From contig NZ_JAEKJR010000002.1 in assembly GCF_017303155.1 (NCBI RefSeq), forward strand, positions 186,001-250,000: 64,000 bases of DNA. The letters are read 5' to 3'. The first letter of the stretch is position 1. Every line of letters begins with the position of its first letter. The position numbers and the translations under genes are program-made. Below the pieces are notes generated by a model. It had not been told where the DNA came from, made no database searches, and saw nothing but the letters and a program-made list of their open reading frames with translations. The DNA comes from Microbulbifer salipaludis. GTDB taxonomy: Bacteria > Pseudomonadota > Gammaproteobacteria > Pseudomonadales > Cellvibrionaceae. Of the stretch, positions 40,561-52,593 are shown in pieces.

Positions 40561-43791
<3,231 letters not shown>

Positions 43792-43833
43792 TCGAGCATT
43801 GATTTGAGTGGCCCGCAAGGGGCACTATTTTTG

Positions 43834-43862
43834 AAAGCTCCGCCGCCTGGTGGAGCTTTTTC
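43834..43862 (+). terminator. Terminator between carB and greA
   Basis: AAAGCTCCGCC (43834-43844), loop GCCT, GGTGGAGCTTT (43849-43859) and a T tract; one G-U pair in the stem. It may be partial, since greA follows only 65 bases later. Confidence 0.8.
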
Positions 43863-43926
43863 GTTAAGAATTAACCTAAAAGCACATCGCAGCGCATTGC
43901 GAAATGTGAAGATTCTGGAGGTTCCC

Positions 43927-44403
43927 ATGAACCGTGTACCCATGACCGTTGAGGGCGCAGAGGCTCTGCGCACAGAACTGGACGACCTGAAAAAAGTGCA
44001 GCGTCCGGCTGTTGTTCAGGCCATCGCCGAGGCCCGTGAGCACGGCGACCTGAAAGAAAATGCCGAGTACCACGCGGCGCGGGAAAAGCAGGGGTTTATT
44101 GAAGGCCGTATTCAGGAAATCGAAGCCAAGCTTTCAATGGCCCAGGTCATTGATGTCAATGCCATCGAGCCGTCCGGCAAGGTGATTTTTGGCACCACCG
44201 TGACCATCATCCACATGGAAGACGATTCCGAAGTGACCTACAAAATTGTGGGTGATGACGAAGCGGATGTGAGAAACAAGAAGATTTCAGTGAACTCGCC
44301 AATTGCCCGCGCGCTGATCGGCAAGGAAGAAGGGGATATTGTGGTGGTGAATACACCCTCGGGCGCGGTGGAATATGAGATCGATGAGGTGAAGCACATC
44401 TGA
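43927..44403 (+). CDS. greA: Transcription elongation factor GreA
   Basis: Binds the RNA polymerase secondary channel and stimulates cleavage of backtracked RNA. 158 residues: an N-terminal coiled coil ([18 protein letters not shown]) with the conserved acidic tip in [19 protein letters not shown] (Asp and Glu at DLKENAEY), and a C-terminal FKBP-like domain ([17 protein letters not shown]). The ATG at 43927 is preceded by GGAGG; the longer open frame upstream crosses the terminator. Confidence 0.97.
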
Positions 44404-44427
44404 TCGTTCCGGATCTCGAATACTGAA

Positions 44428-44457
44428 AAGGCGGCCACTGGCCGCCTTATTTATTTG
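44428..44457. terminator. Bidirectional terminator between greA and the curli locus
   Basis: AAGGCGGCCA (44428-44437) and TGGCCGCCTT (44439-44448), flanked by A-rich and T-rich runs on both sides. It closes greA and the last curlin gene. Confidence 0.85.
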
Positions 44458-44472
44458 TCGGAGCGAAGCCGG

Positions 44473-45351
44473 TTATTGCAAGACGACCGCATTGTTGCCA
44501 ACCCCGATCTGGGTGACGATCGCGGTCTCAGACAGGCCGTTTTGCACCACGTTGGCATTATTCGCAGCACCGATCTGGGTCACGATTGCGGTATGCCCGC
44601 CGAGCCCGAGCTGCAGAATATTGGCATTGTTGAGGAAGCCATCCTGGGTAACCGACGCGGCATTGAACCAGCCAAACTGGGTGATGAGAGCATCATTACC
44701 GAAACCGCTCTGGCTAATGTCTGCCTCGTTGAAGAAGCCTGCCTGTAGCACATTCGCGCTGTTGCCCGCACCGGATTGTGTCACGCTGGCGCTATGGCCA
44801 ACGCCGCCCTGCAAGATCGCTGATTCGTTTCCGATACCGTCCTGGAAAATATACGCTTCAGAATTGGCGCTGAAGAACTGGCCGATATAGGCGTTGTGCA
44901 CCAGCCCGGATTGCTGGATGACCGCTACATTATCGGTACCGGCTACCTGATCAACACGGGCATCGTTGTTAATGCCCTGCTGTACGATCACCGCCGTGCT
45001 ATTGCTTGAGCCCAGCTGAAACGTCGAGGCGCTGTTGGCAAACCCCTGTTGCTGAATTTCTGCCAGGTTATTGGACCCGTTGGATTGCAACGAGTAGGCG
45101 TCATTGAGCCCGCCCGTTTGCACCTGGTAAATCGCGCTATCGGTCTCTCCTGCCTGCGTCGCATTGGCTTCGTTGAAGAAACCGGTTTGTGTTTGCTGAA
45201 TCAGGTTGCCGATGGCGCCGGCATCCGTCTGATCGACGTTTGCCGTATTGCCGACCCCGGTTTGGGTGACAATTGCCGTATTGGCATCGGCCCAGGTAAT
45301 GCCGCTGATCGCGAACATAACTGCGGCACTGACATGCGCTAGATACTTCAC
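44473..45351 (-). CDS. Curlin-repeat protein, 12 repeats (CsgA-like)
   Basis: Predicted secreted amyloid fibre subunit. 292 residues; signal peptide about 1-21 (VMFAISGITWA). The mature part is 12 repeats of about 22 residues with the curlin pattern A-x-V-x-Q-x-G-x-x-N-x-A-x-x-x-Q (for example NTAIVTQTGVGNTANVDQ, ADISQSGFGNDALITQFG). Lys is absent after the signal and Arg nearly so. The end, TQIGVGNNAVVLQ, is almost the same as that of the next curlin. E. coli CsgA has five repeats. It is the last gene of the locus, 125 bases after its paralogue. Confidence 0.92.
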   Translation of the reverse strand: MKYLAHVSAAVMFAISGITWADANTAIVTQTGVGNTANVDQTDAGAIGNLIQQTQTGFFNEANATQAGETDSAIYQVQTGGLNDAYSLQSNGSNNLAEIQQQGFANSASTFQLGSSNSTAVIVQQGINNDARVDQVAGTDNVAVIQQSGLVHNAYIGQFFSANSEAYIFQDGIGNESAILQGGVGHSASVTQSGAGNSANVLQAGFFNEADISQSGFGNDALITQFGWFNAASVTQDGFLNNANILQLGLGGHTAIVTQIGAANNANVVQNGLSETAIVTQIGVGNNAVVLQ

Positions 45352-45430
45352 ATGAACTCCTTCACTTCACACTACGTAAGGAATTGTTTGAAATAGCGGG
45401 AGTGGGTTGGCTTGGAGAAGGGACGGGCAA

Positions 45431-45453
45431 CGAGCGGCTGGGTAAGCCGCTCG
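45431..45453 (-). promoter_or_regulatory. Perfect 9-bp hairpin between two curlin genes
   Basis: CGAGCGGCT and AGCCGCTCG around a GGGTA loop, 24 bases after the stop of the upstream curlin gene. No T tract follows on the minus strand, so it may adjust the relative level of the two curlin mRNAs rather than end transcription. Confidence 0.45.
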
Positions 45454-45476
45454 CTGCTTGAACCGCTGCTACAGGA

Positions 45477-46352
45477 TTACTGCAGGATCAGGCCGTTGTT
45501 GCCGAAGCCAACCTGCAGAGAGGTTGCGGTGTCACCCAAGCCGATCTGGCCCACCAGTACGTTGTTGGCGCCACCGATCTGGGTGGTGGTGGCAGTCAGG
45601 CCAATACCTACCTGACCGATGTAGCTGTCGTTCAGGAAGCCGAACTGCGCAGTAGTGCCCGAGTTGGCGGCACCCAGCTGAGAAACATCCGCTTCGTTGG
45701 CAAAACCAACTTGCAGAATATCGGCATCGTTGAACAGGCCGATCTGACGAGTGTCAGCATCGTTAGCAATACCCACCTGAGTCATGTCAGAGGTTTGCAG
45801 GATGCCCGCCTGGAAAGAGTCTGCGTTGTTCGCAATACCCTGCTGGTTGATATTGGAGGAGTTCAGCAGGCTCAGAGCCTGGACCGCAGTGGCCGTGTTG
45901 CCGAGGCCCGCCTGGGTGATGGATGCGGAGCTCAGCAGGCTCACCGCTTGCAGCACGAGCGCGCTGTTGGCAAAGCCCACTTGAGTGATAGATGCAGAGG
46001 ACAGACCGGAAGCCAGCTGGACCGTTGTTGCGTTGTTCACCGCGCCGGCTTGCAAAATAGTGGCGCTGTTGAGCAGGCCGCCAGTTTGCAGTGAGAAGGC
46101 ATTGTTCGCTACACCCACCTGTGTCTGGTTAATCAGGCTGCTGGTTTCACCATCTTGTTCCGCATAGGCATTGTTGAAAAAGCCTAACTGAACCTGGTTG
46201 ATGGTGTTGTCATTGGTGGTCGGGCCGGTCTGGTCGGCGGTGGCATTGTTACCGACACCAACCTGGGTCAGGTTGGCTGTATTGTTTGCGGCGAAGGCAG
46301 AACCACTTACAGCCAGCAGAATGGCAGCGGCAATAGGGGAAAACGTCTTCAT
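45477..46352 (-). CDS. Curlin-repeat protein, 12 repeats (CsgA-like paralogue)
   Basis: 291 residues; signal peptide about 1-21 (ILLAVSGSAFA). Twelve curlin repeats follow (for example NTANLTQVGVGNNATADQ, ADILQVGFANEADVSQLG), ending VGFGNNGLILQ. Several repeats carry Leu/Ser at the turn (GLLNSATILQ, SLLSSASITQ), a variant not seen in the neighbouring curlin. The ATG at 46352 has GGAG upstream; a longer in-frame extension lacks a signal peptide. Almost identical length and repeat number to the downstream gene point to a tandem duplication followed by divergence. Confidence 0.92.
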   Translation of the reverse strand: MKTFSPIAAAILLAVSGSAFAANNTANLTQVGVGNNATADQTGPTTNDNTINQVQLGFFNNAYAEQDGETSSLINQTQVGVANNAFSLQTGGLLNSATILQAGAVNNATTVQLASGLSSASITQVGFANSALVLQAVSLLSSASITQAGLGNTATAVQALSLLNSSNINQQGIANNADSFQAGILQTSDMTQVGIANDADTRQIGLFNDADILQVGFANEADVSQLGAANSGTTAQFGFLNDSYIGQVGIGLTATTTQIGGANNVLVGQIGLGDTATSLQVGFGNNGLILQ

Positions 46353-46931
46353 GAGTTGCTCCTTTACTTCGGACGTTAAGTACAACCAGCCCCGGGGGTG
46401 CTGATTAGTTATGGCACGGAAAAAAGAAGTGCCATATTGGGTCAGGTGTGAGCGGCGCGACTGTGGGCGTTGATCCGTGCCTCTGCGCGGGGCCTCATCA
46501 CCGAATTCTTCATGTCTCGTAACATTTCCAGCGGGCGCACGATTGCCAGTTCAGCGGGACCTCCGCAGTTGGCGATGGGCTGTCACGAGTTCTCAGTTTT
46601 CAGTAAGTTTGAAAAATAACCGGTAAGGTCAAAAATTGATCATCTTGTTATTGAGTGTTGCTGGTATCAGGGGGTGGCGCTATAGGAGGGAAGTGGTGAA
46701 AAAGTAGGAAGAAAGTATAATTTTTAATCGATAATGGGTCCGGAATCCGGGGTTTCATAACCAAACAACGGTTTTTTGGCGCCTGAGACATTCTACGGCG
46801 TCCGAACCGTCAGGGGCGGCTCTGTGAAAATAGGCGGGGAGTCCATTGGCGGGGCGGGTAAACGGACTGAGCGATTGATCCCGGTGACTGGATAATGAGA
46901 GCGCCGCATTGCTGGGCCGGAAGGCCCTGAA
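46353..46931. other. 579-base non-coding region upstream of the distal curlin pair
   Basis: No gene found on either strand; the few small reading frames lack ribosome binding sites. It contains an AT-rich block near 46610-46740, the perfect inverted repeat at 46410-46436, and a small GGGCC-GGAA-GGCCC hairpin at 46914-46927 after the csgA-like stop. It probably carries a separate promoter for the two distal curlins. Confidence 0.55.
46410..46436. promoter_or_regulatory. Perfect inverted repeat before the distal curlins
   Basis: TATGGCAC and GTGCCATA flank an 11-base A/G-rich loop, about 58 bases before the curlin start at 46352. The position suits an operator or a leader hairpin. It contains TGGCAC, the first half of a sigma-54 promoter, but no matching GC at -12. 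Confidence 0.45.
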
Positions 46932-47918
46932 TCAATGGGACAGGGAAACAGAATTGCCGGTGCCGAACTGGGTGACGGTGGCACTGGCGGAAATACCGTT
47001 TTGCGAGATCGCGGTGGCGTTGAATGTACCAACCTGACTCACTACTGACCGGTGGCTACCGCCCAGCCCGATGGCGCCCGATTGACGGATCACTACCTGG
47101 TTGAAATTCCCGTTCTGATCACTGCTGGCCTGGTTGCCATCATCTTCCTGAGTGAGATAGGCCTGGTTGGCCAGCCCGTCCTGCAGCAGTTCAGATTCCT
47201 GCAGGGCACCCGATTGCTGTACGGTGCTCTTGTTGAACCCCCCCTGTTGCACCACCGCGGAAAAATGATCGACGCCGCTTTGCTGCACAGACGCCGTGTT
47301 ATCGTTCCCCTGCTGATCGGTCGTGCTTTTCAGATGAAAGCCGGTGTTCTGCAGCGTGTCGGCGACATTGCCGATACCGGCCTGGCTAATGCGGGTATCG
47401 TTAAAATTCCCATTCAGCTGAACCGTGCCCGCTTCGTTGCCGAAACCGATCTGGCGAGTTCTGGCGAGGTTACCGTAGGTTGAGGATTGCAGGCTGGTTA
47501 CACGATTTTCTGTGCCTACCTGCACGTTGTATATCTCGTTGCCGCTGCCGTATTGCTGTTGCACCAGGGCCTCGTTAAAGGCCCCGTTTTGCTGTTGGTA
47601 AATGGCGCTGTCCGTCTCCTGTTGCTGGGTGGCTTCCGCCGTATTTTGCGCACCTGCCTGTTCCTGCTCCAGCGTGTTTTCGCGGGTGCCGTCGAACTGC
47701 TGCTGGGTGGCCGCAAAGTTATCCAGCCCCTCCTGATATTGGTAGACAGAGTTTTGCTGTGCCACGGCATACGCCGGCAACGCTGTAACCAGTGCGAACA
47801 ACGCATTACGGACACATGGACTGACAACATCTGGCCGGCGAGTAGCAGACACACCCGGTAACCGTGTTAGTAACCGTATCCGTATCTGCAGAGAGGCGAT
47901 GAGTGGCGACAGTGGCAT
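46932..47918 (-). CDS. csgA: Curlin-repeat major-subunit-like protein, 12 repeats (CsgA position)
   Basis: About 328 residues. The core signal-like segment is VRNALFALVTALPAYAVA, then Gln-rich repeats: I count 12 of about 22 residues (NSVYQYQEGLDNFAATQQ; NFNDTRISQAGIGNVADTLQ). More Gln, Arg and Lys than the two distal curlins. It shares the block ETDSAIYQ-Q-GxxNxA with the gene at 44473. Start uncertain: the ATG at 47918 gives a very long n-region; a GTG at 47852 gives a more usual signal peptide; neither has a good ribosome binding site. It follows csgB by 49 bases. Confidence 0.85.
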   Translation of the reverse strand: MPLSPLIASLQIRIRLLTRLPGVSATRRPDVVSPCVRNALFALVTALPAYAVAQQNSVYQYQEGLDNFAATQQQFDGTRENTLEQEQAGAQNTAEATQQQETDSAIYQQQNGAFNEALVQQQYGSGNEIYNVQVGTENRVTSLQSSTYGNLARTRQIGFGNEAGTVQLNGNFNDTRISQAGIGNVADTLQNTGFHLKSTTDQQGNDNTASVQQSGVDHFSAVVQQGGFNKSTVQQSGALQESELLQDGLANQAYLTQEDDGNQASSDQNGNFNQVVIRQSGAIGLGGSHRSVVSQVGTFNATAISQNGISASATVTQFGTGNSVSLSH

Positions 47919-47967
47919 GGCAGACCCGTTAGCTGGAATGGTCAAAAAGGGGAGGTCGGTGGCGCTT

Positions 47968-48525
47968 TCAATCGTACTGATTGATCGTGGTCGTCATGGA
48001 GACGCCGGTCTGGGTGACCGCTGTACTCAAACCGCTGCCGCGCTGGTTGATCGTGACATTGTGATAGAGCCCGATCTGTTCGACGGATGCCGAATTTCGC
48101 ATGCCATATTGGCTGATGTCGGCCTTGTGTGCATAACCAACCTGCTCGAGCAGGATAAAATTTTCGTAGCCCGCCTGCAGTAGCGCGGCGATATTGCTAT
48201 CCCCGGACTGACTGGCGATGGTACTGTTGCCCTCACCCGCCTGACGAGTGATCAGCAGATTACTGAAGCCCACCTGATCCACCGAAAGAAAGTTCACCGT
48301 GCCGAGTTGTTGCGCAGAAACGTGGTTGAAATTACCGACCTGATAGATAGTCGCTACATTCGCTACCGAGTATCCAAACAGTGGACGGTCCAGTTCACTG
48401 GTTGTGGCAAGCTCGCCGGCACTGCCGTCGATCTCCTGAGCCACTGCGAGTCCGGTCGCCAGAAGGGCGACCGTGAGGGTAAATAGGCGCAATGAATAGA
48501 CTGGGCTGGCGGGCCGTAAATACAT
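47968..48525 (-). CDS. csgB: CsgB-like curlin nucleator
   Basis: 185 residues; signal peptide about 1-29 (LTVALLATGLAVA). After a 20-residue linker come six curlin repeats (VATIYQVGNFNHVSAQQLG, NSASVEQIGLYHNVTINQRG), ending in INQYD. In E. coli CsgB (five repeats) seeds CsgA polymerisation at the cell surface. Assignment as nucleator rests on its short size and its place directly after csgG and before the csgA-like gene; it could instead be another subunit. Confidence 0.82.
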   Translation of the reverse strand: MYLRPASPVYSLRLFTLTVALLATGLAVAQEIDGSAGELATTSELDRPLFGYSVANVATIYQVGNFNHVSAQQLGTVNFLSVDQVGFSNLLITRQAGEGNSTIASQSGDSNIAALLQAGYENFILLEQVGYAHKADISQYGMRNSASVEQIGLYHNVTINQRGSGLSTAVTQTGVSMTTTINQYD

Positions 48526-48579
48526 GAATCGTCTCTCTTGAAATTGTCCTTATTAAGGGCTGTGCGCTGCACCGTCACT

Positions 48580-49443
48580 CTAAAGAATGGCGGTGCCTTC
48601 GTTCAGGTAATATTGCAATACCGGATTATTGATATCCTCCGGATTATCGAGAGCCCAGGAATTCGCAACAATCCCCTGGCTGATCAGGTGAATTACGGCG
48701 GATTCCATCGCTGAGAGCATGGCCAGCTGCGCGGGCTCATTGGTGGTGGTGCCCACCTCGATTTCCAGCAGTCGCTTGAATTTCACAAAGCGAAAGACGT
48801 CGGCACTGATTGCCTTGGAATAAACCGTTTTTGACGTGAGCACTGAATGCAGCACCCGGCCGGAACGGATGTCCACCGCCCGCAGGTTGACGGTAACCTG
48901 ATCTACCCGGTACTGCTCATCGGCACCAATGCCAAAATAGCGCGCACCGGCGCCCCCGGTGCGGATATTGGTGTCGTAGGCAACGATGCCGCCCTCGATA
49001 AGAATGTTTGCGGCAACCAGCGACGGCAGCATGGTATTGTTTTCCGGCGCGTTGGGTTTTGCCAGTGCGGCACGTACAATCTTGCGCTCGGTGAGCAGAT
49101 TCTGCAGCCCCTCGCGTTCCAGCGGAATAAACCAACCGGATTCGTTTAGCACATTCATCAGCATTGAGGCGGCCCCCTGGGTTACCGCCGTGGAAAAGCT
49201 ACTGGAGGGGGCAGGTTTGTACTGGCCTGTTTGGTCACGAAAATTGTACACCGCTGCCAGTATTTTCCCCTTGGGCTGTGGGAGCCCCAGTAGATCGCGG
49301 TACGTATTGTTGCGCGGCGTCAATTGTGCATCTTGCAGGCCGGGGCCAAACAGCGCATCACCGGTTTTCTTGACAGCAGTACAGCCACTTATGGCGAGCA
49401 TAAATGACAGGGCGGTGACAAGTTTGGAACCTCTTGTAAACAT
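48580..49443 (-). CDS. csgG: Curli secretion pore lipoprotein CsgG
   Basis: Outer-membrane nonameric channel that exports curlins. 287 residues. Lipobox LAISGC with Cys21; conserved blocks GWFIPLEREGLQNLLTERKIVRAA (in parts WFIPLEREGLQNLL), GGAGARYFGIGADEQY and SADVFRFVKFKRLLEIEVG. The constriction loop reads YKPAPSSSFSTAV, where E. coli has FKPYPASNFSTAV, so the Tyr and Asn of the eyelet are Ala and Ser. The ATG at 49443 and a GTG at 49446 share the GGAG site. Confidence 0.95.
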   Translation of the reverse strand: MFTRGSKLVTALSFMLAISGCTAVKKTGDALFGPGLQDAQLTPRNNTYRDLLGLPQPKGKILAAVYNFRDQTGQYKPAPSSSFSTAVTQGAASMLMNVLNESGWFIPLEREGLQNLLTERKIVRAALAKPNAPENNTMLPSLVAANILIEGGIVAYDTNIRTGGAGARYFGIGADEQYRVDQVTVNLRAVDIRSGRVLHSVLTSKTVYSKAISADVFRFVKFKRLLEIEVGTTTNEPAQLAMLSAMESAVIHLISQGIVANSWALDNPEDINNPVLQYYLNEGTAIL

Positions 49444-49569
49444 CACGCTAGTCTCCAGTATTATTCGCGATTATTCGGGATTGCGGATCAGTCCATGGTG
49501 CTGCTAGTGGGATCTGATAAAGCTGCTTCCTTTTTTGGTTTTCAGTGTCTTCTGTTTACAGGTGTCGGG

Positions 49570-49989
49570 TTAATTGGTGGGGTTGAGACCGCTGACGATG
49601 ATTTCACTTTTGTCGCCCGTGGCCCGGTCGGTGATCAGGACAGTCAACACACCATCGTTGTCGACGATCTGGACGATAAAGTCGTCGGTGATCAGCTCTC
49701 CGCTGTTGCCATCACCCACGTCGGTGAGCAACTGGTTGAGCAGCCGGGTTTCCAATGAGTCGGTAAAACGGTCCAGCGCGCTGGGCTGTTGGTACAGGTC
49801 GGCGGGATTGTCGGGGTCTTCGTTGTCGTCCTGGGACTGGGCGTTTTGCATCAAGTAGCCACCATTTAGCGGGTTGCCGCCAAAATTTGGATTGCGCGGC
49901 TCATACACCAGCTCGGTGGCGAGTGCCAGGTTACTGCAGAGTACAAGGCCCGGAGCGAGTAGCAGACTCGCCGATTTTATGGTTTTCAT
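49570..49989 (-). CDS. csgF: Curli assembly protein CsgF
   Basis: Secreted factor that caps CsgG and couples export to nucleation. 139 residues with a signal peptide (about 1-24). The CsgG-contacting N-terminus of the mature chain, TELVYEPRNPNFGGNPLNG, matches the family. Its start overlaps the csgE stop by one base. A 126-base spacer separates it from csgG. Confidence 0.93.
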   Translation of the reverse strand: MKTIKSASLLLAPGLVLCSNLALATELVYEPRNPNFGGNPLNGGYLMQNAQSQDDNEDPDNPADLYQQPSALDRFTDSLETRLLNQLLTDVGDGNSGELITDDFIVQIVDNDGVLTVLITDRATGDKSEIIVSGLNPTN

Positions 49990-50435
49990 CAGAGTTCATC
50001 CTTGCCTAGGTCAAAGTGGTCGGTAAACGCTGCGCGGACTTTTTCCTGAAGCACCATCTCGTGAATCATTTTTGATGCTTCCTCCGCCAGCTGACGAATA
50101 TTGTTGGTGCTGGGACTGATAAAGCGCCGAAACACGGTTTTGTTGTTGTAGGTAATCCAGATGAGGTTGCCCCAGCGTGCCGACGGTCTTTCCTGAATCG
50201 TCAGGTTGTAATCACTGTCTGGATAATTCAGGTTACGATACTCGCTCATGAACCGGGCAAAATCGTGACCGGTGCGGGTAATGGTCTGGTCAATATTGAA
50301 CCCGCTTATCTCTTCCTCGATGCCAGCGCTGCTTGCTGCCGCGGCGGATTCTTCCAGGGTGCCACTGTCTTCCTGCGCGACCGCGGTAACGGCCAGCAAC
50401 ATGCACAACAGCACACCGGTTCGCAGGGAATTCAT
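49989..50435 (-). CDS. csgE: Curli assembly protein CsgE
   Basis: Periplasmic cap that guides curlins to CsgG. 148 residues with a signal peptide (about 1-20). Family core: DQTITRTGHDFARFMSEY, DYNLTIQERPSARWGNLIW, and the C-terminal helix. About 25 extra Ser/Ala/Glu-rich residues lie after the signal. It overlaps csgD by four bases (ATGA). Confidence 0.93.
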   Translation of the reverse strand: MNSLRTGVLLCMLLAVTAVAQEDSGTLEESAAAASSAGIEEEISGFNIDQTITRTGHDFARFMSEYRNLNYPDSDYNLTIQERPSARWGNLIWITYNNKTVFRRFISPSTNNIRQLAEEASKMIHEMVLQEKVRAAFTDHFDLGKDEL

Positions 50436-51037
50436 ATGCGTTCGGCTTCCAGGTGCAGCTTGGCCCAGTTGCTCGCCTGCAGGCGGTTTTTGACACCGAT
50501 CTTGCGGAATATGTTGTACATATGGTTTTTGACGGTGTGCTCGCTCAAGTGCAGGCGCGAGGCGATAATACTGTTGGGTTCCCCGGTGGTGAGCTGGGCG
50601 AGGATTTCCTGCTCGCGCTTGGTCAGCAGTAGCCGGGAACGTGATTCCGTATCACCGGGCTGGCGCGCGTTCTGAATACCCAGGGAGAGTTTTTTAAGCA
50701 GTTCCTGCTGCCCGGTGCGGTTGTCGCAAAGAAACACAAACTTGCGCTCTTCCAGCGGCTTGCTGATATGTGACGGCATGTCATTGGGAAGGTTGATCAG
50801 GAGCACCCGGGGATGGTCAATACTTCTCAGGTGTTGAAGTTCAGTGCCGGGCGAGGACTGGGTGTTGAGCCCGAAGCAGTTGACGATGATCGCATCGTAG
50901 GTTTTGAGACAGTGCTTTTGCTTGCCAAATTCGGCTTTTTCCCAGCTGTTTGGCAATGATTCAGATACGAGTGAGAACAGCAAGTCCCCGTGCAGGCCGG
51001 AATCGCTCAAAAAGAGAATCGGCATAGATGACCCCAT
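50432..51037 (-). CDS. csgD: CsgD-like LuxR-family regulator
   Basis: Transcriptional activator of curli genes. 201 residues: an N-terminal receiver-like domain without the phospho-acceptor pattern (about 1-125) and a C-terminal LuxR helix-turn-helix (LTKREQEILAQLTTGEPNSI, IASRLHLSEHTVKNHMYNIF in parts, KIGVKNRLQASNWA), close to E. coli CsgD. It is the first gene of the operon and is translationally coupled to csgE. The start may be ATG 51037 or ATG 51025, which has a GGGG site. Confidence 0.9.
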   Translation of the reverse strand: MGSSMPILFLSDSGLHGDLLFSLVSESLPNSWEKAEFGKQKHCLKTYDAIIVNCFGLNTQSSPGTELQHLRSIDHPRVLLINLPNDMPSHISKPLEERKFVFLCDNRTGQQELLKKLSLGIQNARQPGDTESRSRLLLTKREQEILAQLTTGEPNSIIASRLHLSEHTVKNHMYNIFRKIGVKNRLQASNWAKLHLEAERI

Positions 51038-51125
51038 AATTAGTCAAGGACGCTTGCGGAATGAGGTGAAGACCGGGTGCTGGCGCTTGAGCCCCAAAGA
51101 AAGCTCCTCCTGTGACTTCTTGTTT

Positions 51126-51147
51126 GGGAATACTTGCGGTTATTCCC
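51126..51147. promoter_or_regulatory. Inverted repeat upstream of csgD
   Basis: GGGAATA and TATTCCC, spaced by eight bases, about 90 bases before csgD. Candidate operator or leader hairpin. Confidence 0.4.
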
Positions 51148-51169
51148 GGCTGGAGGAACCTGCGTCAGC

Positions 51170-51181
51170 CCACTTAAGTGG
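51170..51181. promoter_or_regulatory. 12-bp palindrome upstream of csgD
   Basis: CCACTTAAGTGG is a perfect palindrome about 133 bases before csgD. A second smaller repeat, TCTCA-TTCCT-TGAGA, follows at 51186-51200. Such spacing suits a dimeric regulator at the csgD promoter. Confidence 0.45.
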
Positions 51182-51366
51182 AAAATCTCATTCCTTGAGA
51201 AATTTGTATGGAGTGTAGACGGGAACCGGGTAACTACTGCTAAATAAGGTGACAGTCATTTCAGAATATTTTTTGTTAAAAACGCAGTTTTTAATAATTG
51301 TTTTTCCCGGTTTTTTATTTTTTATAATCTTCGGGAATGCAGTTCCATGGATCAGGGCATCCTAGG

Positions 51367-52593
51367 ATGATGTTGCTGTGCGTCGCCGGGCGACCGCATT
51401 TAATTTTCGGTAGGGTAGTCAGGTTGATCCGATCTTCAGGCGGAAGCGCTTTTCGGCGCCAGCTGGGGTACCTGGTAACAGGCATATGCGCGCTGGCGCT
51501 TTTATGTTTGCTTGCTGGCTGTACCGAGCCGGATGAGGTGGCGCTCGGCACACTGGAATGGGATCGGATTGCACTCCCCGCGCCGGCGGCGGAAAAAATC
51601 GTGGCCATTCATGTGCGCGAGGGACAGCGCGTTTCCCCGGGGCAGGTGCTGTTGCAGCTGGACCCGGAGCAAACCCTGGCCCGGTTAGGCGCGGCGGAAG
51701 CCGCGGTCGCACAGCAGAGTGCCGCCCTGCAAGCGCTGAACGACGGCCCGCGGCAGGAACAGATTGCGCGCGCCAGAGCCGAGCTCGAAGCGGCGCAGGC
51801 AGAGGCGCGGGATCGCCAGGCCGACTATCAGCGAATTGTGGCTCTGGGAAAGAAAAACTACGCATCCCGCTCAGACATCGATGGGGCCCAGGCGGCAGCG
51901 GAAACTGCCCAGGCCCAGGTGCGCGCGGCGCGCGAGCAGTTGCTGGAGCTGGAGCGCGGTACGCGGCCAGAAGACATTGAGCAGGGGCGCGCGGCACTGG
52001 CCGAGGCGCGAGCGCAAGCACAGGCGCAGCGGGTATTGCTGGAAAAGCTCACGCTGCGTGCGCCGCGCCCCGGTATTGTGGACAGCATCCCCTTCAAGCT
52101 GGGTGATGAGGCGCCCCTCGGGGGCTCACTGGCGGTGCTGTTGACCGGCGCTGCTCCGTACGCGCGGGTGTATGTGCCCCAATCCATGCGCTTGCGCGTG
52201 CAGGTAGACGGACAGGCACAGGTTTTTCTCGAAGGTATTGGTGAGGCGGAGCGGTTAGCGGGGCGCGCGGGGCCTTTTCCCGGGCGTGTGCGCATGGTGC
52301 GCAATGCACCGAGTTTTACCCCCTATTACGCGCTCACTGGCGATGATGTGACGCGCCTGAGCTATATCGCGGAGATTCAGCTGGGTAAAGCGGCGGCACA
52401 ATTGCCGGCGGGCCTGCCACTGCGCGCCAGCTTTTCCGGTAACGTGGGCGCGCCAGTACCGGATGGCGAGTTTCATGGCCAGCCGAATCCCACGCCCCAG
52501 TCTGCCCCGGTAGAGAGCGCCGAGGACGAACCCCCGGCGCTTCCCGCCACCGAAGATCCCGACCAATATGGGCCCTATGATGGCGAAAAGTGA
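51367..52593 (+). CDS. HlyD-family adaptor lipoprotein of an ABC exporter
   Basis: About 408 residues. A lipobox (ALLCLLAGC) follows a basic N-terminus, so the protein is probably a lipoprotein. Lipoyl-like half-motifs are IVAIHVREGQRVSPGQVLLQ and, after the coiled coil (about 110-220, Ala/Arg/Gln-rich), LTLRAPRPGIVDSIPFKLGD. An acidic Pro-rich tail (APVESAEDEPPALPATEDPD) ends the chain. It overlaps the ATPase gene. Start uncertain (51337, 51367, 51370 or TTG 51424); a TATAAT at 51323 makes 51337 unlikely. Similar to YbhG of the YbhGFSR exporter. Confidence 0.82.
   Translation: MMLLCVAGRPHLIFGRVVRLIRSSGGSAFRRQLGYLVTGICALALLCLLAGCTEPDEVALGTLEWDRIALPAPAAEKIVAIHVREGQRVSPGQVLLQLDPEQTLARLGAAEAAVAQQSAALQALNDGPRQEQIARARAELEAAQAEARDRQADYQRIVALGKKNYASRSDIDGAQAAAETAQAQVRAAREQLLELERGTRPEDIEQGRAALAEARAQAQAQRVLLEKLTLRAPRPGIVDSIPFKLGDEAPLGGSLAVLLTGAAPYARVYVPQSMRLRVQVDGQAQVFLEGIGEAERLAGRAGPFPGRVRMVRNAPSFTPYYALTGDDVTRLSYIAEIQLGKAAAQLPAGLPLRASFSGNVGAPVPDGEFHGQPNPTPQSAPVESAEDEPPALPATEDPDQYGPYDGEK

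Follow-up and report, generated by a model that had tools for sequence, protein, structure and literature searches.

Curli are adhesive amyloid fibres found in biofilms. The window, a 64,000-nt stretch of the genome of the marine bacterium Microbulbifer salipaludis, carries on its minus strand, within positions 44473-51037, the genes csgD, csgE, csgF and csgG together with four curlin-repeat genes, referred to here as curlins 1 to 4. The locus thereby encodes the parts of a curli (type VIII secretion) system, namely a CsgG channel with a lipobox, CsgE and CsgF, and curlin-repeat subunits with a predicted beta-solenoid fold (modelled for curlin 3). The original prediction of a complete one-strand curli locus with four curlin-repeat genes was borne out: all eight genes lie on the minus strand, and CsgE, CsgF, CsgG and all four curlins (PF07012) exceed the curated gathering scores of Pfam. 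The 546-bp gap that separates curlin 3 from the genes before it contains a conserved element, the curlin box and an accompanying block, which also precedes unlinked curlin genes far from the csg locus in several related genomes.

The first gene, csgD (50432..51037), encodes a LuxR-type regulator of 201 aa with a GerE helix-turn-helix domain (E 3.9e-19). It stands before csgE, is encoded with csgEFG and shares 37% identity with E. coli CsgD over 134 aa. With the NCBIfam equivalog model it scores 80.2 bits against a cut-off of 250 bits, and on its sequence it is judged a divergent relative of CsgD, not an equivalog. In NCBIfam, none of the eight gene products (0/8) attains the equivalog cut-off of a Csg model, and they are therefore regarded as divergent relatives. 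The homology assigned to the export genes was upheld by hidden Markov model (HMM) searches for csgE (49989..50435, 148 aa, PF10627, E 4.2e-31), csgF (49570..49989, 139 aa, PF10614, E 1.2e-30) and csgG, encoding the secretion channel (48580..49446, 288 aa, PF03783, E 2.8e-76). CsgG also matches a CsgG structure in the PDB (E 3.1e-82), and its lipobox, read by eye, is LAISGC. In the whole genome (3.98 Mb, 3 contigs), PF03783 matches only once, hence no second CsgG was found, no match to CsgC was detected, and all 7 PF07012 matches (E up to 0.001) fall inside this locus.

Curlin 1 (47968..48525, 185 aa, 7 minimal repeats, PF07012 E 4e-18) is csgB-like, and its counterparts in relatives are mostly 179-199 aa long. 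Curlin 2 (46932..47945, up to 337 aa, 12 minimal repeats, E 3e-14) has an uncertain start, either the mechanically chosen TTG 47945 or ATG 47918, which is listed in the close relative G031. Curlin 3 (45477..46352) has 291 aa from ATG 46352 and 13 minimal repeats, with E 2.5e-24 for the longer frame, and curlin 4 (44473..45351) has 292 aa and 13 minimal repeats (E 4.9e-33). Putative signal peptides with AxA-type ends were read by eye in all four, the start of curlin 2 being uncertain. The naming of the subunits as csgA or csgB is not fixed by sequence because the NCBIfam CsgA and CsgB scores of all four are below cut-off; curlin 4 scores higher as CsgB than as CsgA. Curlin 3, the one window curlin for which a structure model was made, gave with 17 other curlins of the genus an AlphaFold2 beta-solenoid with a predicted local distance difference test score (pLDDT) of 93.8 and a predicted template modelling score (pTM) of 0.87. 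The CsgA of Pontibacter korlensis (PDB 8c50) is both its best sequence match (E 5e-25) and its top fold match (E 8.3e-11), although the organism is distant, the template modelling score (TM-score, by query) over the full length is only 0.43 and the root-mean-square deviation is 16.6.

Gene order was compared across the genus. A csgF relative is present in 33 of 58 genomes, comprising 30 of 37 Microbulbifer genomes (own genome included) and 3 of 21 others of the order. In every case examined, namely the window locus, 28 csgD-bearing relatives and 9 further loci, csgD-csgE-csgF-csgG leads and curlins of the same strand come next; the enlarged subunit set behind csgG likewise recurs across the genus. 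In one locus (L089), a curlin of the long type lies ahead of the csgB-like curlin. As in E. coli, CsgD, CsgE, CsgF and CsgG homologues and curlin repeats are present and the subunits can be read separately from csgDEFG. However, E. coli has divergent csgDEFG and csgBAC units with csgC, whereas the Microbulbifer locus lies on one strand in a genome with no CsgC match, and its subunits, with 7-13 minimal repeats, are unlike those of the E. coli curli system. The contrast with the divergent E. coli units proved less special than first presented, because loci with operons in one direction and with additional curlins have been described before: csgDEFG and csgBA in one direction are described for Aeromonadales and Oceanospirillales, and up to six csgA/B homologues for some genera, in parts of Dueholm et al. 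(2012, PMC3521004). According to the same parts, those orders resemble the window locus in the common orientation of csgDEFG and the subunit operon, in long CsgA homologues with many repeats and in additional csgA/B copies. The layout alone, with one-strand csgDEFG plus csgBA and extra curlins, is of this ordinary kind.

Distances between the genes were taken from 29 loci (the window locus and 28 relatives) with mechanically chosen starts. The four-base overlap of csgD and csgE noted in the window was confirmed and recurs in 23 of the 29 loci, with five loci reading -37 and one +2, and csgE and csgF overlap by 1 bp in the window and in all 29. The first curlin lies within 94 bp of csgG or overlaps it in 28 loci, the remaining one (L089) having 372 bp, and a second curlin follows closely in most loci, while seven pass directly to a long gap. 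The first long gap measures 327-970 bp to the mechanical start. In the window, curlin 4 begins 125 bp after curlin 3. Because of these distances, the spacing suggests a single unit through curlin 2 and a break behind curlin 2, a predicted split that differs from the one between csgG and csgB in E. coli.

Alignment of the gap before curlin 3 in 10 genomes revealed two conserved blocks, the ribosome site of curlin 3 and a block with a double half-site. The latter belongs to an element of the form ACTTTnTTCCtA-N10-ACTTnnnTCCyATrGC-N18-CAAnACT, composed of a pair of ACTTnnnTCC half-sites at a distance of 22 bp, a TATRGC, which may be a -10 box, and a CAAnACT block. In the window, half-sites A and B form the curlin box, ACTTTCTTCCTA-N10-ACTTCCCTCCTATAGC (46679..46716, minus strand), the only copy in the genome at up to 3 mismatches, and the CAAnACT block, or block C, is CAANACTNAA (46651..46660, minus strand), which was not part of the search pattern.

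A search of 48 Microbulbifer genomes for the double site, with up to 3 mismatches, returned 114 distinct sites in 40 genomes, all present in the stretches fetched, against 3 for the reversed pattern. For 105 of the 114 sites, a curlin open reading frame (ORF), recognized with an HMM built from 248 repeats, begins on the same strand no more than 1000 bp downstream, with a median of 298 bp to the first possible start; the proportion was 47/47, 18/18, 17/18 and 23/31 for sites with 0, 1, 2 and 3 mismatches, respectively. All eight dispersed curlins tried in a Pfam check exceed the cut-off (8/8). Because the motif was derived from the main loci, only sites elsewhere provide independent support: 43 of 52 such sites pass the curlin test, although 7 of the 52 come from short contigs of G004, a fragmented genome, and are only presumably unlinked to the main locus.

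The spacer between half-sites is nearly constant: in 40 stretches searched with up to 2 mismatches, 10 bp occurred 44 times and 11 bp 6 times, and spacers of 4-9 and 12-16 bp did not occur. In a logo of 112 sites, the information content is 1-2 bits for the majority of half-site positions, a partly circular result since the half-sites are the search pattern, and 0.0-0.5 bits for most flanking bases. The T-rich middle of the spacer, which is weaker, reaches 1.2 bits, and the CAA and ACT of block C, outside the pattern, 1.0-1.7 bits. Half-site B alone, on the coding strand and with 0-3 mismatches, occurs in csgD-type loci always in gaps beside curlins and was not found in eight csgD-less loci of the genus. 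On the opposite strand, two matches with 3 mismatches lie away from curlin gaps (L072, L096), and in the same search of both strands several matches with 4 mismatches appear elsewhere. Twelve regions with a single B half-site were picked as possibly off-locus; six precede dispersed curlins (L103, L104, L106, L108, L110, L112) and three belong to main loci (L107, L111, L114). The matches in L105, L109 and L113 were set aside, as they lie inside other coding sequence and were not recovered with the double site.

Among 341 genomes of the order searched with up to 2 mismatches, the box occurs in 7, all Microbulbifer, with one match of the reversed control pattern, and none of the 333 genomes outside the genus (0/333) carries it. 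Comparison shows an element so far seen only in this genus, with a constant spacing, that accompanies curlin genes, in several relatives also those distant from the locus. A csgD match (E up to 1e-30) was found in 41 of the 48 genus genomes, and all seven genomes without one also lack the box (7/7). Five of the seven have no curlin repeat (E up to 0.001), and G006 and G067 have repeats in one place each, those of G006 being a csgD-less locus. By this measure, the box is tied to the curlins of genomes that possess csgD.

The csgD-less locus of G006, its sole curli locus, belongs to a second type found in eight genus genomes (L090-L097), with csgEFG and two curlins on one strand. It resembles the window locus in its export genes, curlins and single orientation and differs in that no csgD was found in the stretch, no curlin box lies at its curlins and its csgF is 60-63% identical. 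The dispersed curlins can be numerous. In G010, the stretches fetched contain 28 curlin-repeat ORFs, some overlapping or fragmentary, compared with the "up to six" given in the relevant part of PMC3521004, and for 15 of the 28 a box with no more than 4 mismatches lies in the 900 bp upstream. The genome of M. salipaludis is a modest case, with four curlins and one box.

Taken together, we consider it probable that the window holds a complete curli locus with two transcription units, in which the shared element, probably under CsgD, drives curlins 3 and 4. Since the same element fronts unlinked curlins in related genomes, curlins 3 and 4 most likely have their own promoter. For the same reason, the proposal that regulator, export apparatus and all subunits form one unit is not supported: on comparative evidence, the 546-bp gap holds a conserved cis-element, which speaks against the idea of a regulator, exporter and full subunit set locked together. 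The locus looks rather like the home of a small regulon than like a single operon. The first unit, csgD-csgE-csgF-csgG-curlin 1-curlin 2, would be read from upstream of csgD and would provide the regulator CsgD, the CsgG channel, its helpers CsgE and CsgF, and curlins 1 and 2. The second, curlin 3-curlin 4, would be read from the three-part element, the putative promoter and operator of a curlin regulon, where CsgD may occupy both half-sites from the same side of the helix. CsgD produced from the first unit would thus turn on the second unit and, in relatives, the dispersed curlins through the box. All subunits would be exported by the one CsgG channel, aided by CsgE and CsgF, and would then join outside the cell into one fibre, of which curlin 1 may be the nucleator.

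The extension of this model to the genus, whereby the csgD-linked exporter serves a large dispersed curlin family, many members of which are switched on by a shared operator with 22-bp spacing under CsgD, is proposed tentatively, at a little less than an even chance. If correct, the fibre could be of mixed composition, differing in its subunits from species to species, with synthesis under one switch. The short pattern already predicts unlinked curlin genes. Should the element be a CsgD operator, it would offer a sequence-level handle on curli regulation outside enterics, and the notion of one exporter building mixed amyloids from many subunit genes would become testable.

Several observations weigh against the two-unit reading with its CsgD-controlled box. 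For nine of the 114 sites, the 1000 bp downstream lack the start of a curlin ORF. In two of these a curlin does follow, at about 1070 and 1275 bp, another runs into the end of its contig, and the stretches of two others (L155, L156) contain no curlin. The remaining 13 of the 28 curlin ORFs in G010 lack a box in the 900 bp before them, again at up to 4 mismatches; some of them lie close behind another curlin and two are in a csgD-less locus. On the minus strand, the interval 44350-51400 showed no sigma-70-like site. The box tracks curlin genes as well as csgD and the genomes are related, hence linkage by descent could give the same pattern; moreover, G007, one of the five csgD-negative genomes without a curlin repeat, is only 80% complete. 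G013 and G035 keep csgD near greA and carB and yet have no curlin repeat genome-wide, and in the 18 kb read around csgD no csgE, csgF, csgG, curlin or box was detected. Genome-wide, G013 has no box and the single 3-mismatch match of G035 is not at a curlin. In these two genomes, csgD has another role or is a relic, an apparent loss of curli with the regulator left behind. The box was also rejected as the element upstream of csgD, where the best matches in 29 loci have 8-11 mismatches, and no likeness to the E. coli csgD-csgB intergenic region was retained, the best match having 10 mismatches.

These points favour in part a different assignment, in which the element is a curlin promoter or operator bound by a different activator or by a sigma factor specific to it, with CsgD working elsewhere or indirectly. 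The lack of resemblance to the E. coli csgBA regulatory region, the absence of a box at csgD and the box-free csgD surroundings in G013 and G035 all agree with such a factor. However, it leaves unexplained why the csgD-negative genomes of the genus, two of them with curlin repeats, have no box and why csgEFG loci without csgD have none at their curlins, and we regard it as unlikely, though deserving of attention. Of similar standing, and doubtful in our estimation, is the view that this is an ordinary curli locus with same-direction operons and nothing further to explain. The published same-direction csgDEFG/csgBA arrangements and multiple csgA/B homologues speak for it (PMC3521004), and the layout itself is conceded to be ordinary. 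Nevertheless, Microbulbifer does not appear in the main text of that paper, and the parts of it cited here name no shared cis-element and describe no box-linked dispersed curlins; no element like the curlin box is present in the E. coli csgD-csgB region either.

A further possibility is that the eight genes form one operon, the gap being an extended leader or a place of processing, with the element working at the RNA level. All genes lie on the same strand, the gap after curlin 2 yielded no terminator-like site on the minus strand, and the half-sites are pyrimidine-rich and followed by a conserved leader. The element nonetheless also fronts curlins that are not part of the csg locus and hence require their own promoter, and given the conserved element in the gap the single-operon reading was set aside as the main model and is held to be improbable. 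Finally, that the shared upstream sequence is a functionless remnant of gene duplication appears very improbable: the curlins are indeed paralogues, many with common signal peptides and leaders, but the half-sites stand out from their flanks (a partly circular measure), block C is conserved without having been searched for and the half-site spacing is fixed.

For the two-unit model, a possible csgD promoter region is of interest. A conserved element unlike the curlin box lies 137-177 bp upstream of csgD (51174..51214, minus strand), seen as a footprint in 8 aligned loci. It occurs once each in 19 of the 48 genus genomes (up to 3 mismatches), always beside csgD; that it was not found at this threshold in the other 22 of the 41 csgD genomes counts, like the observations above, against the proposed regulation. 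At its edge in the window, positions 51170-51181 form a 12-bp palindrome, CCACTTAAGTGG, which is only partly kept in relatives.

The second conserved block of the gap alignment concerns the 5' end of curlin 3. Because this block lies at the ribosome site in the 10 genomes, the start was shifted, and curlin 3 most likely begins at ATG 46352 and not at TTG 46385; the Shine-Dalgarno stretch before ATG 46352 is invariant in the alignment. The conserved leader spans 46353..46440 (minus strand), with AACGTCCGAAGTAAAGGAGCAACTC preceding the ATG. Within it, 46410-46436 contains a perfect inverted repeat, TATGGCAC/GTGCCATA, partly kept in relatives. A hairpin AACGTC...GACGTT at the ribosome site is not claimed, having been judged by eye, with variants that show no compensating changes. 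Box-linked curlins, for example at 46290-46352 in the window, have rather uniform signal-peptide-like starts (MKT[FL][TS]PIAAA...) followed by variable repeat bodies, and for this reason the promoter, leader and signal peptide of many of them look like one conserved 5' cassette. In a search of 43700-52000 for known RNA families, the one match, BASRCI337 at 44424-44498, was taken as chance, its 27.6 bits lying well below the gathering score of 229.

With regard to the surroundings of the locus, greA lies downstream in convergent orientation in 26 of the 29 stretches, the other three (L081, L083, L087) ending short of it, and curlin arrays traced to greA contain 3 to 8 curlins. A divergent pair encoding a membrane-fusion protein and an ATP-binding cassette (ABC) exporter is labelled upstream in 16 of the 29 stretches, about 6 kb away in two of them. 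In the close relative G031, an acyltransferase gene (PF01757, L062 15203-16567), absent from the window, stands between curlin 4 and greA. Another curlin array includes a di-haem cytochrome c peroxidase-like gene (L071 2443-4245, minus strand, PF03150, E 5.2e-19), and peroxidase-like frames also occur in the arrays of L085 and L088, giving three genomes in all, just upstream of a boxed curlin.

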